A DNA stretch of 64,000 bases from Desulfofustis sp. PB-SRB1 (GTDB lineage Bacteria; Desulfobacterota; Desulfobulbia; Desulfobulbales; Desulfocapsaceae): the NCBI GenBank assembly GCA_016722945.1, contig JAEQMT010000059.1, forward strand, positions 186,001 to 250,000, written 5' to 3'. Below are positions 15,518 to 55,129 of the stretch, piece after piece (the first letter of the stretch is position 1; the number at the start of each line of letters is the position of its first letter). A program made the translations under genes and the position numbers. The notes beneath the pieces were generated by a model. It had not been told where the DNA came from. It searched no databases and saw nothing but the letters and a program-made list of their open reading frames with translations.

Positions 15518-15546
15518 CCCCCTGCACCAAGAACCGATACAGGGGG
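15518..15546. other. Stem-loop downstream of the SDR gene
   Basis: CCCCCTG (15518-15524) pairs with CAGGGGG (15540-15546) across a 15-base loop and can extend into flanking TTC/GAA. No T-run follows. It may end SDR transcription, or it may belong to the IS91 relic that begins a few bases on. Confidence 0.3.
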
Positions 15547-15560
15547 AAGAGCAAGGTATC

Positions 15561-15968
15561 AGCCAACTAAAGAGATATTACTTGGAATATGACGTCCTGT
15601 CAGACATCCCTTTGGAAAAGCTGAAGTATGAATCAGGTGACTCGTCGGTAATCTACCGCTCGAAGATGACGCATGGGAAAAACAAGAAAAACTTCCAGGT
15701 ATTTTCACCCGTGGAGTTTGTCGCGGCAATAACCCAACACATTTCTGATTCGCCATTTCAACTGGTGCGGTAGTACGGGTGCTACAGCAACCGAATGCGC
15801 GGCGATAGGGACAAGCAGCACAAGCGGGAACAAGGGCAGAACACAGCAGCGACAGAAGTGGTCGACGAGGTGCCCGTAATTGGTGGGAAATGGGTCTACA
15901 TGGTGGCTTTGGCCGTGCAATCCATTGGCGAAATCAAACTCCTTGAAGCGGCGGCAAAAAAGAGCTAA
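15561..15968 (+). pseudogene. IS91-family (Y2) transposase C-terminal relic (copy 2)
   Basis: One frame runs from about 15561 to TAA at 15968 and reads RYYLEYDVLSDIPLEKLKYE, NFQVFSPVEFVAAITQHI, FQLVR, a stop at 15771-15773, YGCYSNRMRGDRDKQ and finally VYMVALAVQSIGEIKLLEA. The block resembles the C-terminal third of IS91/IS801-type transposases, where a tyrosine would replace the stop (VRYYG-type). The N-terminal two thirds are missing. Its tail recurs at 66-165 in the same orientation, 15.8 kb away. Just after it, the upstream glycosyltransferase-like copy loses its start. Confidence 0.7.
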
Positions 15969-16035
15969 GCTACCGCGCACACTGCCAGAGGGTAAAATCA
16001 GCGGTGAAATGAGGACTCGCTAAGAAAGCAAATTC

Positions 16036-16074
16036 TTATCATCATCAATTCTTATCATCTACCATCTTATCATC
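16036..16074 (+). repeat. Three spaced TTATCATC repeats
   Basis: TTATCATC occurs at 16036, 16052 and 16067, spaced 16 and 15 bases, in a low-complexity stretch just upstream of the conserved part of the truncated glycosyltransferase-like gene. It may mark slippage at a recombination junction. Confidence 0.45.
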
Positions 16075-16075
16075 T

Positions 16076-17011
16076 ACGCAAAAAACCTGTGGCATAAGCA
16101 TACTGAGCTGGCGTTCCTGGGAATCGCTTATTGCCACCCTGGAATCGTATGAGCGGGTCGGATTATTTGATTTTTTTGACCGCGTCCTCATCTATTTTCA
16201 GGACGTATGCCCGCGCGATATTGAGATAGCCACGCGGTTTTCGCTCGACTATCACGGCGGGCCAAATTGCGGGATCGCCGACGGCATGCGCAACGGAGCC
16301 ACGAAACTTGGCACCGATTACGTGTTATTCCTTGAAAACGATTGCCCGGTAATCGAAGACCGGAACGAGATAGAACGCCAACTTAAAACCGCTCTTAAGT
16401 ACCTGGAATCCGGCACAATCGACATCATGCGGCTGCGTTCGAGGCTGCGCCCCGGCGAGTCCTTTATGGATATACCAAAGTATTTACGCTACTACACCGT
16501 GCGCGAAAAAGAGCCACTGGTGGATATCGAGCCGTTCCACGCCGAGACCCGGCGCAGATGGCTGAGGCGTATCTATAAACGCCACAATCTCAACCGCATG
16601 AAGGGCCGGGCCGTCTACCTTGAACAAGCAGCCGAAAAACTATTTCCAGAGGTCATTCAAAAAACCGAGGATGGCATTTGGATTATGGATTCCTGCTGCG
16701 CCGATTGGACGAATCAGTCGGTGCTGTGCCGCCGCGATTTTTTCCTTGACGTGCTCATGCCCTATGTTGACGCCCACCCGTCTTCGCGCACCAGCAACGG
16801 CTTCCAAGAACCGGAGCGTCCCTTAAACTGCCGATGGTGGCGGCGGCAACACTTTAAAATTGGCCAGGGCAAAGGCCTATTCACCCACCGCCGCGTTGAT
16901 GGCAGTTGGCGGTCTTATCACCCAGCTTTTGAAGACACGGCAAGCTATGCCCCCGGCTCTGACAACGACCGCGCCTCCCAGCCCACGCATGGTGCCAGCA
17001 TTGACGGCTAG
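16076..17011 (+). pseudogene. Glycosyltransferase-like gene, copy 1, without start codon
   Basis: The frame carries the whole conserved core (CGISILSWRSW, GLFDFFDRVLIYFQD, GGPNCGIADGMRNG, YVLFLENDCP) but no ATG, GTG or TTG occurs between the in-frame stop at 16010-16012 and the late ATG at 16286, which lies inside the core. The intact neighbour at 16989 begins with 11 extra residues and an ATG. The 5' end was therefore probably lost next to the IS91 relic. The fold looks like a GT-A enzyme with FLENDCP in the DXD position. The last 30 residues (after DGSWR) are unlike copy 2. Translation could still begin at 16286 or at a non-standard codon. Confidence 0.6.
16706..16912 (+). repeat. 207-bp homogenised block, copy 1
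   Basis: Matches 17640-17846 with only two base differences over 207 bp, while the sequences just upstream of each block differ much more often, including third-codon positions. This is the pattern expected of gene conversion or a recent partial duplication. Confidence 0.85.
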
Positions 17012-17894
17012 CGCAGCAAAAACTTTAGGCGTAAGCATCATCAGCTGGCGTTCGTGGGAAACGTTGGAAATGACGCTCTCCTCCTACCAGGAAGTGGGGC
17101 TGTTTGATTTTTTTGACCGCGTACTCCTCTACTTCCAAGACCTGGGCCAACGCGATATTGAGATTGCAGCCAAATTCGGGCTCCCCTATGGCGGCGGGCC
17201 CAACTGCGGGATAGCCGATGGCATGCGCAACGCGGCCACGGAGCTGGGAACCGATTACGTGCTCTTTCTGGAAAACGATTGCCCGCTCATCGAAACACGG
17301 GATGAGGTGGAATTTCAGCTAAAAACCGCTCGGCAATATCTGGAATCGGGCATCATCGACGTGATGCGCTTGCGCTCCCGTCTGCATCCCGGCGAGGCCT
17401 TTGCCGACGTGCAAAAATATCTGCGCTACTACCCCGTACGCAAAAAAGAACCGTTGGTGGATATCAGGCCATACCGTTTGGAAATCATGTTTCGGTGGCT
17501 GTGGCGCGTGAAGCGTTACAACCTGAGCCGCATGAAGGGCCGGGCCATCTACGTTGAACAAGCAGCCGAGGAGCTATTTCCGGAAGTCATCCAAAAAACC
17601 GCGGAAGGATTCTGGATTCTCGATTCCTGCTGCGCCGACTGGACGAATCAGTCGGTGCTGTGCCGCCGCGATTTTTTCCTTGACGTGCTCATGCCCTATG
17701 TTGACGCCCACCCGTCTTCGCGCACCAGCAACGGCTTCCAAGAACCGGAGCGTCCCTTAAACTGCCGATGGTGGCGGCGGCAGCACTTTAAAATTGGCCA
17801 GGGCAAAGGCCTATTCACCCACCGCCGCGTTGATGGCAGCTGGCGGAAAGAGCATCCAGCGTTTGAGGGGGAAATAGGGAGTGGCGACACGTAA
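16989..17894 (+). CDS. Glycosyltransferase-like protein, copy 2
   Basis: A 301-residue protein starting MVPALTASAAKTLGVSIISW. The ATG at 16989 is chosen because it gives a compact N-terminus before the first conserved strand; earlier in-frame starts lie wholly inside copy 1. Core features are a GT-A-like strand, GLFDFFDRVLLYFQDL, GGGPNCGIADGMRNAA, YVLFLENDCPLIE, MRLRSRLHPGEAF and a Cys/Trp-rich end (LDSCCADWTNQSVLCRRDFF, RPLNCRWWRRQHF). It overlaps copy 1 by 23 bases. A surface-glycan role is likely from the fold. Donor and acceptor are unknown. Homologues appear to be a small, poorly described family. Confidence 0.7.
   Translation: MVPALTASAAKTLGVSIISWRSWETLEMTLSSYQEVGLFDFFDRVLLYFQDLGQRDIEIAAKFGLPYGGGPNCGIADGMRNAATELGTDYVLFLENDCPLIETRDEVEFQLKTARQYLESGIIDVMRLRSRLHPGEAFADVQKYLRYYPVRKKEPLVDIRPYRLEIMFRWLWRVKRYNLSRMKGRAIYVEQAAEELFPEVIQKTAEGFWILDSCCADWTNQSVLCRRDFFLDVLMPYVDAHPSSRTSNGFQEPERPLNCRWWRRQHFKIGQGKGLFTHRRVDGSWRKEHPAFEGEIGSGDT
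17640..17846 (+). repeat. 207-bp homogenised block, copy 2
   Basis: Partner of 16706-16912 (two mismatches). Encodes the segment from WTNQSVLCRRDFF to VDGSWR. Confidence 0.85.
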
Positions 17895-52212: not shown

Positions 52213-53268
52213 ATGAAAATATTTCATATTAAGAATAAAAAAATCGGTATTGGGCATACACCGTATGTTGTTGCCGAGGTTGCGCAAGCGCATGACGGCA
52301 GTCTCGGAACGGCCCATGCATACATAGATGCCATCGCAAGAACCGGTGCTGACGCGGTTAAGTTCCAAACCCATATTGCAGAAGCAGAAAGCACGCAAGA
52401 GGAGCCGTGGCGCATTAAATTCAGTCCGCAAGATGAAACGCGCTATGATTATTGGCGACGCCTTGAGTTTTCCGAGGCTCAATGGCGTGGTCTTTATGCG
52501 CATGCGCAAGAACAGGGTATGGCTTTTATCAGCTCTCCCTTTTCCATCAAAGCCGTCGATATGCTCATTGAGACTGGTATTGACGCCTGGAAAATCGCAT
52601 CCGGGGAGGTTGCGACCCCTGACCTGATTGAGAAAGTGGTGGAGTCAAATATCCCCGTTCTCGTATCATCTGGGATGAGCTCATTTGAAGAAATAAAAAA
52701 AGTCGTGAAAATTTTTCGCCAAAGAGACAAACCGTTTAGTCTCTTGCAATGCAGTTCATACTATCCATGTCCGCCCGAAAAGGTCGGCTTGAATAACTTG
52801 GCTCTTTTTCGTGAAGAGTTTAAATGCCCGGTTGGTCTGTCAGATCATTCCGGCACGATTTATCCCTCTCTTGCCGCTGTCGTATTGGGTGCCAGCATCC
52901 TCGAGGTGCATGTAACGTTCAGCAGGGATCTTTTTGGGCCTGATGTATCCTCTTCGATCACTATTGAAGAGCTTGCAACTCTGATTAAGGGTGTTCGTTT
53001 TTGTGAAAAAATGATGGGTAACCCCGTGGACAAAGATCGACTCGCGAAAGAGTTGGCGCCAATGCGGCAACTCTTCACGAAAAGTGTCGTTTCCGTGCGT
53101 GATTTAGCGGCAGGCACAATCCTGACAGGGGAAGATGTGACGGTTAAAAAGCCTGGTCATGGAATTCCAGCCAAAGAGTTGAACAGCGTTATTGGATGTC
53201 GGCTCAGGACGGATGTAAGGGTTGACCAGGTTTTATTACCGGGAGATATTGAGTGGAACAGCCAATAA
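52213..53268 (+). CDS. neuB: N-acetylneuraminate synthase (NeuB family)
   Basis: A 351-residue enzyme that condenses an N-acyl-hexosamine with phosphoenolpyruvate. Catalytic-barrel features are VVAEVAQAHDGSLGTAHAYI, GADAVKFQTHI, AWKIASGEV, VLVSSGMSSFEEI, LLQCSSYYPCPPEKVGLN, GLSDHSGTIYPSLAAVVLGA and EVHVTF. A C-terminal SAF (antifreeze-like) domain starts near TKSVVSVRDLAAGTIL and has VKKPGHGIPAKEL. Its stop overlaps the neuC start (TAATG). Sialic, legionaminic and pseudaminic synthases share this fold; the neuC and neuA neighbours favour Neu5Ac. Confidence 0.92.
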   Translation: MKIFHIKNKKIGIGHTPYVVAEVAQAHDGSLGTAHAYIDAIARTGADAVKFQTHIAEAESTQEEPWRIKFSPQDETRYDYWRRLEFSEAQWRGLYAHAQEQGMAFISSPFSIKAVDMLIETGIDAWKIASGEVATPDLIEKVVESNIPVLVSSGMSSFEEIKKVVKIFRQRDKPFSLLQCSSYYPCPPEKVGLNNLALFREEFKCPVGLSDHSGTIYPSLAAVVLGASILEVHVTFSRDLFGPDVSSSITIEELATLIKGVRFCEKMMGNPVDKDRLAKELAPMRQLFTKSVVSVRDLAAGTILTGEDVTVKKPGHGIPAKELNSVIGCRLRTDVRVDQVLLPGDIEWNSQ

Positions 53269-54419
53269 TGCGAAAAGTATGTGTGGTCATTACGGCCCGT
53301 CCAAGCTACAGCAGAATAAAAACCGCCCTTGCGGCTATCAGGGATCACCAGTCACTGCACTTGTATCTCGTGGTCGCAGCCTCCGCGCTTCTTGACCGGT
53401 ACGGCATGGTGATCAACGAAATCAAGCGGGACGGCTTTTCAATTGACCGGCAAGTGTACATGGTCCTCGAAGGAGAGAGTCCGATATCCATGGCTAAAAC
53501 GACCGGCATTGGTCTGATGGAAATGGCTACCGTATTTGATAACCTGGGTCCGGATCTTATCGTCACCATAGCCGATCGTTACGAAACCATGGCAACCGCT
53601 GTTGCTGCAGCATATTTGAACATTCCCTTGGTTCACATTCAGGGGGGCGAAGTAACCGGCTCCATCGATGAAAAGGTACGCCACGCCATAACCAAGCTTG
53701 CCGACCTCCATCTTGTTTCAACAAAACAGGCATTTGATCGGGTGGTGAAAATGGGCGAGCATCCTGACAAGGTAGTGATAACCGGATGTCCATCCATCGA
53801 CCTTGCACAAGAGATACTGGCTTCACCAAAGCTTGATTTCTGTCCATTTGATAAGTACGGCGGTGTCGGTCGCAATGTCGATATAGCGAACGGTTACCTG
53901 GTGGTGATGCAGCACCCAGTAACGACCGAATACGAAAAAGCCAGTACCCAGGTTGATGAAACCCTTTATGCGGTTATGGGACTCGGCATTCCAACGCTGT
54001 GGTTCTGGCCCAATGTCGACGCCGGATCTGATGGCACATCAAAGGGCATTCGGAGTTTCAGGGAACGAGAACAGCCTGAGAATATCCATTTTTTTAAGAA
54101 TATGGAGCCTTATGATTTTCTCAGGCTCATTTATAACAGCCGCTGCCTTATCGGTAACTCAAGTGTCGGTGTTCGTGAAAGTTCTTTTCTCGGCGTCCCG
54201 GTCGTCAATATAGGTTCTCGCCAACAGGGACGCGAGCGCGGAGAAAATGTTATCGATGTTTCTTATGATCGACGCGAGATTGTTGAGGCGGTCACCATCC
54301 AGACGCAACGCGGCAGATATGACCAGGCACATATCTATGGAGATGGACATGCCGGAAAGATCATTGCCGATGTCCTGGCCACAACGCCTCTTTCAATTGA
54401 AAAGCGCTTGAATTACTGA
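53268..54419 (+). CDS. neuC: UDP-N-acetylglucosamine 2-epimerase (hydrolysing), NeuC
   Basis: A 383-residue GT-B-fold enzyme that yields ManNAc and UDP. It has KVCVVITARPSYSRIKTALA, DLIVTIADRYETMATAVAAA, VHIQGGEVTGSIDEKVRHAI, HLVSTKQAFDRVVKMGEHPD, ITGCPSIDLAQ and LIGNSSVGVRESSFLGVPVV. The ATG at 53268 overlaps the neuB stop; an upstream GTG adds five residues. Makes the NeuB substrate, so the three neu genes form a self-contained CMP-sialic acid route. Confidence 0.93.
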   Translation: MRKVCVVITARPSYSRIKTALAAIRDHQSLHLYLVVAASALLDRYGMVINEIKRDGFSIDRQVYMVLEGESPISMAKTTGIGLMEMATVFDNLGPDLIVTIADRYETMATAVAAAYLNIPLVHIQGGEVTGSIDEKVRHAITKLADLHLVSTKQAFDRVVKMGEHPDKVVITGCPSIDLAQEILASPKLDFCPFDKYGGVGRNVDIANGYLVVMQHPVTTEYEKASTQVDETLYAVMGLGIPTLWFWPNVDAGSDGTSKGIRSFREREQPENIHFFKNMEPYDFLRLIYNSRCLIGNSSVGVRESSFLGVPVVNIGSRQQGRERGENVIDVSYDRREIVEAVTIQTQRGRYDQAHIYGDGHAGKIIADVLATTPLSIEKRLNY

Positions 54420-55129
54420 TGAAGATTCTTGGTCTTATTCCGGCCCGGGGAGGCTCCAAAGGGGTTCCGCGGAAAAATATCAAGCTGCTCGGCGGCAAAC
54501 CACTGCTCTGGTATACGGTAAGTGCGGCGAAGGGGGCCCGCGGGCTTGATCGCATCGTCCTGTCTACCGACGATCTAGAGATTGCCGAGGTTGGCAAACG
54601 GTGTGGCGTTGATGTTCCATTTATCAGGCCGGCGGAGCTGGGAAAAGACGATACCCCTACCTTGCCTGTCATTCAGCATGCCCTGAACTGGCTGGAGAAG
54701 CGTGGTGCGGTCTATGAGGCGGTTTGTTTGCTGCAACCAACCTCACCGTTCCGAGGTTCACGGGTTATCGAAAAATGTTTGGAGACATTTGTCGAGACGA
54801 ACGCTGACACCCTAATCACGCTTCAGCCCATTCCGGAAAAATTCCATCCCGCCTTTGTCTATTTTAAAAGTAGTGAAGGGTGGTTGCACAGTTGTCTCGG
54901 CAACGATTTGGCTGTTGTACGGCGCCAGGACGTGAAGCCGGCATATGTTCGGGAAGGATCGGTTTATATAATTAGAAGAGAAACTCTGATGGAGTCATCA
55001 TCGCTCTACGGTCAACGGATTGTCGGCTATGACATGGCCGTTGAGCAGACAGTCAACGTAGATACGCTCGAAGATTGGCACTATGCCGAACGTCTCTGGA
55101 GAGAAAAGCAGCGTGCGGACACCCCATAA
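54419..55129 (+). CDS. neuA: CMP-sialic acid synthetase (acylneuraminate cytidylyltransferase)
   Basis: A 236-residue cytidylyltransferase: ILGLIPARGGSKGVPRKNI (CTP loop), GGKPLLWYTVSAA, VLSTDDLEIAEV, LLQPTSPFRGSRVI and VNVDTLEDWHYAERL. It activates the nine-carbon acid made by NeuB. ATG overlaps the neuC stop by one base (TGATG). The protein has no extra domain (some NeuA enzymes carry an esterase). Confidence 0.93.
   Translation: MKILGLIPARGGSKGVPRKNIKLLGGKPLLWYTVSAAKGARGLDRIVLSTDDLEIAEVGKRCGVDVPFIRPAELGKDDTPTLPVIQHALNWLEKRGAVYEAVCLLQPTSPFRGSRVIEKCLETFVETNADTLITLQPIPEKFHPAFVYFKSSEGWLHSCLGNDLAVVRRQDVKPAYVREGSVYIIRRETLMESSSLYGQRIVGYDMAVEQTVNVDTLEDWHYAERLWREKQRADTP

Follow-up and report, generated by a model that had tools for sequence, protein, structure and literature searches.

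Two neighbouring glycosyltransferase-like genes of Desulfofustis sp. PB-SRB1 differ at many positions over most of their length and are almost identical in a block of their 3' parts, and the first of them has no standard start codon. This raises the question of how long-separated copies came to share such a block, and whether the copy lacking a start is a decaying gene, a gene that is still translated or a reservoir of variation for its neighbour. In the 64,000-nucleotide stretch of DNA analysed here (hereafter, the window), the evidence makes it highly likely that an old tandem duplication was combined with gene conversion in the 3' part and with loss of the first copy's start at the junction with a transposon relic, leaving the second as the likely working copy.

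Layout of the tandem pair and its shared block

The first copy (c1, 16064–17011, + strand) is an open frame that runs from 16013 to a TAG stop at 17009–17011, with neither an internal stop nor a frameshift. The second copy (c2, 16989–17894, + strand) is an intact gene of 301 aa, and its ATG at 16989 falls, in another frame, within the final codons of c1. Both the tandem arrangement and this overlap, with the second copy beginning inside the 3' end of the first, agree with the first-pass annotation of this DNA. A third copy (c3) lies on the minus strand of another contig of this genome (G000:C1:58867–59761, corresponding to L005:8868–9762); it starts with GTG. Its frame is intact but for a frameshift of one base near C1:59236, where four C stand in a row, which would reflect either recent decay or a sequencing error. 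Of the three copies, only c2 has both start and frame intact, and it is likely the one that works, its expression being presumed.

A gap-free alignment at an offset of 934 matches 205 of 207 positions between 16706–16912 of c1 and 17640–17846 of c2 (both + strand), exactly the 207-bp block that had been described, with divergent parts upstream: identity drops to about 80% on the 5' side of the block and to about 55% on its 3' side. The two mismatches, at 16849 and 16906, are both third codon positions, and the longest exact stretch measures 143 bp (16706–16848). Assembly of this repeat is the main caveat to our reading, as an exact repeat of 143 bp is near the short-read k-mer limit and can mislead short-read assemblers, and the genome is in 71 contigs; during assembly or polishing, short reads of one repeat copy might have been used for both, rendering the block falsely identical. 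Such an artefact is nevertheless unlikely, given that the block keeps its two copy-specific differences, that either flank of it differs sharply between the copies, and that, with flanks A and C, middle B and repeat R, A-R-B-R-C is the sole linear path using all segments.

The lost start of c1 and the IS91-family relic

Immediately upstream, c1 abuts an IS91-family element (15528–16043, + strand) that is a relic: its Y2_Tnp domain matches the profile at 30.6 bits (cut-off 20.9), is partial (profile positions 97–178 of 183 only) and contains one internal TAG. A fragment of the same element elsewhere in the genome (C45:184053–184239) aligns with it as far as window base 16043, beyond which the two diverge. 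Directly before c1, and spanning its expected start codon, stands a 16-bp tandem repeat in three copies (AATTCTTATCATCTAC, 16031–16077, + strand); the end of homology at 16043 indicates that this repeat opens with the element's final bases and that c1 coding resumes right after it. Searching the genome for a 21-base piece of the repeat, with up to 3 mismatches tolerated, gave no second occurrence.

From 16013 onwards, the c1 frame holds no ATG, GTG or TTG until an ATG at 16286, and the start expected by alignment to the GTG of c3 is an ATC at 16064, inside the repeat. The absence of a start codon and the contact with an IS91 relic, both reported in the first-pass annotation, were thereby borne out, and we infer that the start was probably lost at the junction with the relic. 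Two other candidates were discarded. Initiation at 16286 would cut about 70 residues from the nucleotide-binding half, among them the initial beta-alpha-beta units of the predicted GT-A fold, and was rejected as the start of a functional enzyme; phase variation by the 16-bp repeat was rejected after simulating 0 to 7 copies, none of which puts an ATG, GTG or TTG in frame.

Continued translation of c1 from a non-standard codon, be it ATC 16064 or another, which would make both copies functional, is quite improbable. The ATC does sit where c3 has its GTG, the frame is free of stops from 16013, dN/dS between c1 and c2 upstream of the block is about 0.15, and private residues at conserved sites amount to 0/16 in c1, compared to 4/13 in c2 and 5/41 in c3 (a site counts as conserved when two or all three of the outgroups share the residue of the other copies). 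Against this, ATC start codons are very rare, no Shine-Dalgarno-like sequence can be read ahead of 16064, the site lies within a repeat that starts at the transposon relic's end, and no sigma-70-like promoter match was found upstream on the + strand of the region. A version in which the transposon-end repeat replaced the old start, thereby creating the ATC, with c1 still being made and functional beside c2, has a slim chance of being correct. The intact frame, the low dN/dS and the lack of private changes at conserved sites indicate that c1 was probably under selection until recently.

Decayed fragments of the IS91-family element recur in the genome, namely at window 15528–16043, C45:184053–184239 and C43:69705–69932, with a further fragment near the window's left end (62–178, or C45:186062–186178). 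In the C45:184053 fragment, TTGA comes right after the shared end (...CATC), and the junction thereby spells CTTG, like an IS91 target sequence. A transposase-like ORF, judged from its translation only, follows just after the left-edge fragment (442–2133).

Silent sites and exchange between the copies

Within the protein family, conservation is highest in the part encoded by the 3' half (c3–c2 identity is 88% in the C-terminal versus 62% in the N-terminal half), and percent identity alone thus exaggerates the contrast between the block and its flank. Silent sites are free of this difficulty once the third copy is used as a yardstick. Equal divergence along the whole length, the outcome named in the first-pass annotation as contradicting its reading, is absent: dS between c1 and c2 is 0.044 within the block versus 1.25 upstream, a value that, like all those above 1, approaches saturation and can be read only as "large". 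The corresponding values within the block and upstream are 1.57 and 1.27 for c1–c3, and 1.57 and 1.42 for c2–c3. Consistently, c1 and c2 use the same codon at 62 of 64 shared residues in the block versus 89 of 146 upstream (Fisher p = 5e-9), a contrast absent for c1–c3 and c2–c3 (p = 0.87 each). The longest exact silent run between c1 and c2 was matched by only one of 20,000 shuffles, and the longest run with two mismatches allowed was reached in none of 3,000. A two-rate segment likelihood fit on silent codons places the tract at about 16682–16905, with a log-likelihood gain of 21.3 versus at most 11.6 in 300 shuffles; the same fit revealed no low-divergence segment beyond shuffles for c1–c3 or c2–c3, and c3 was rejected as a conversion partner for want of any segment of low divergence with either copy.

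Strong selection on the C-terminal domain, or DNA or RNA signals, holding the block identical without exchange is hardly credible, even though this half is the family's most conserved: the c3 protein is very similar there, yet its silent sites are saturated relative to both copies, so silent sites in the family are unconstrained and protein constraint cannot explain the block. The contrast in silent rates, read against c3, indicates that the block was exchanged between c1 and c2 long after their divergence, and the bounded tract of low silent divergence, specific to this pair and leaving c3 unaffected, supports gene conversion. GC3 (0.625 upstream in c1, 0.67 upstream in c2, 0.70–0.72 in the block) gives no decisive pointer to the direction of conversion. 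Of the two block differences, c3 shares the base of c1 at one and that of c2 at the other.

These observations are best explained by the following history. An uncharacterised GT-A/GT2-like gene would have been duplicated in tandem long ago, and host homologous recombination between the copies, presumably the route of exchange, would have converted about 207–220 bp of the 3' part encoding the conserved C-terminal domain, so that the copies became identical there; the two silent changes would have arisen after conversion. Independently or later, c1 would have lost its start at the junction with the IS91-family relic, whose terminal bases were repeated three times, and would then probably have remained untranslated as a full-length enzyme. 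Duplication, conversion and loss of the 5' end of c1 had been proposed in the first-pass annotation, and these events are supported by the silent-site rates with the third copy and by the relic–repeat junction; the order it gave to conversion and start loss is not.

That annotation had further suggested that c1 may serve as a silent donor for sequence variation of c2, a suggestion that the evidence does not support. In pilin- and VlsE-type systems, one expressed gene is accompanied by several silent variant cassettes, and the likeness is a copy without expression signals (c1 keeps an intact frame without a standard start) beside an intact one, plus a conversion tract. Unlike in those systems, there is no cassette array and at best a single donor, as only c1 lies beside c2 and the frameshifted c3 is on another contig; the sole visible exchange removed differences, homogenising the most conserved region, whereas the variable 5' two-thirds bear no sign of exchange; c1 has no private changes at conserved sites, as expected of a gene selected until recently; and three other genomes with homologues have one copy each. 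We therefore regard a donor role as very improbable, and ordinary gene conversion with partial decay as the supported mechanism.

There are well-documented cases of homologous recombination converting neighbouring paralogues, among them the tandem duplicates PE_PGRS17 and PE_PGRS18 of Mycobacterium tuberculosis (PMC1762029; see also the discussion in PMC12046097). In both cases the paralogues are adjacent, share their orientation and show a bounded tract, which in PE_PGRS17/18 was transferred by homologous recombination. PE_PGRS17/18 appear in both states across many strains, whereas c1/c2 are known from one genome; outside the tract, divergence between c1 and c2 is also much greater (dS > 1), and c1 has lost its start. 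With the third paralogue as internal yardstick, the locus offers a clean case, within one genome, of how genuine gene conversion can be distinguished from protein constraint and from percent identity as such.

Protein family and genomic setting

The protein gave no match of note to Pfam, NCBIfam or PHROG families, and a sequence search of the PDB returned chance-level matches to translin only. An AlphaFold model built from seven sequences (pLDDT 71.5, moderate) gave 190 PDB fold matches in Foldseek at E <= 0.001, the best 50 of which are GT-A enzymes or related nucleotidyltransferases; they include POMGnT1, mannosylglycerate synthase (MpgS), GpgS, SpsA and hyaluronan synthase (E about 1e-5 to 1e-6). 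The predicted model has the nucleotide-sugar-binding fold of GT-A enzymes, despite TM-scores of only 0.3–0.5. What the family would share with SpsA, GpgS, MpgS and the POMGnT1 catalytic domain is this predicted beta/alpha fold; identity to the solved GT-A structures matched by fold is 9–18%, and the family has its own conserved C-terminal domain. GT-A enzymes carry a DxD motif where c1, c2, c3 and three alphaproteobacterial homologues all have LFLEND; its acidic END motif, which follows a beta strand, has a putative role in metal binding. The N-terminal half gives weak profile matches to genes of the phylum (E 5e-5 to 9e-4); of these, the two that were read through (at L036 and L037) resemble typical GT2-type enzymes in their sequence. 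On these grounds, the protein is most likely a GT-A/GT2-like glycosyltransferase; as no curated profile, Pfam Glycos_transf_2 or other, matches it, we use this wording and do not file it as a GT2 member. The earlier label "glycosyltransferase-like" thus stands on predicted fold and finds no counterpart in Pfam or NCBIfam.

Searching 84,980 species genomes with two short peptide patterns, an insensitive approach such that the family may be larger, returned only three clear relatives outside this genome, all in alphaproteobacterial MAGs, each genome having a single copy, at 38–42% overall identity. Plasmids, phages and viral contigs yielded no homologues. Neither homologues nor a second c1/c2 pair turned up among 96 relatives or, with the first alignment as query, in the class and phylum samples, and with the pair in one genome only, exchange between strains is not visible.

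In two of the three alphaproteobacterial relatives (L028 and L029), the family gene directly follows a second glycosyltransferase-like gene (MKWGTRYG...; L028:7256–7984 and L029:7244–7975). A homologue of the latter lies near c3 (L005:3950–4738; no Pfam match) and is 37% identical to the L029 gene over 249 aa; the c3 neighbourhood also has an epimerase and a GT1 gene. The two genes possibly form a glycosylation module, and their association both in the relatives and near c3 suggests that the c3 site may be the older functional context. The c1/c2 site, by comparison, bears the relic and lies beside a TauE–formyltransferase pair that is conserved in the four family relatives that were compared, all of them lacking c1/c2 at that position. 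Taken together, these data point to a rare glycosyltransferase family that has no Pfam model and is linked to a second unannotated glycosyltransferase-like gene; its interest is mild, being a rare family with one of three copies looking intact.

Elsewhere in the window, a large polysaccharide cluster (34587–61374), read from translations only, comprises many glycosyltransferase-like genes and an ABC exporter-like gene. Within it, genes resembling neuB, neuC and neuA at 52213–55129 suggest that the cluster may make a sialic-acid-like sugar.
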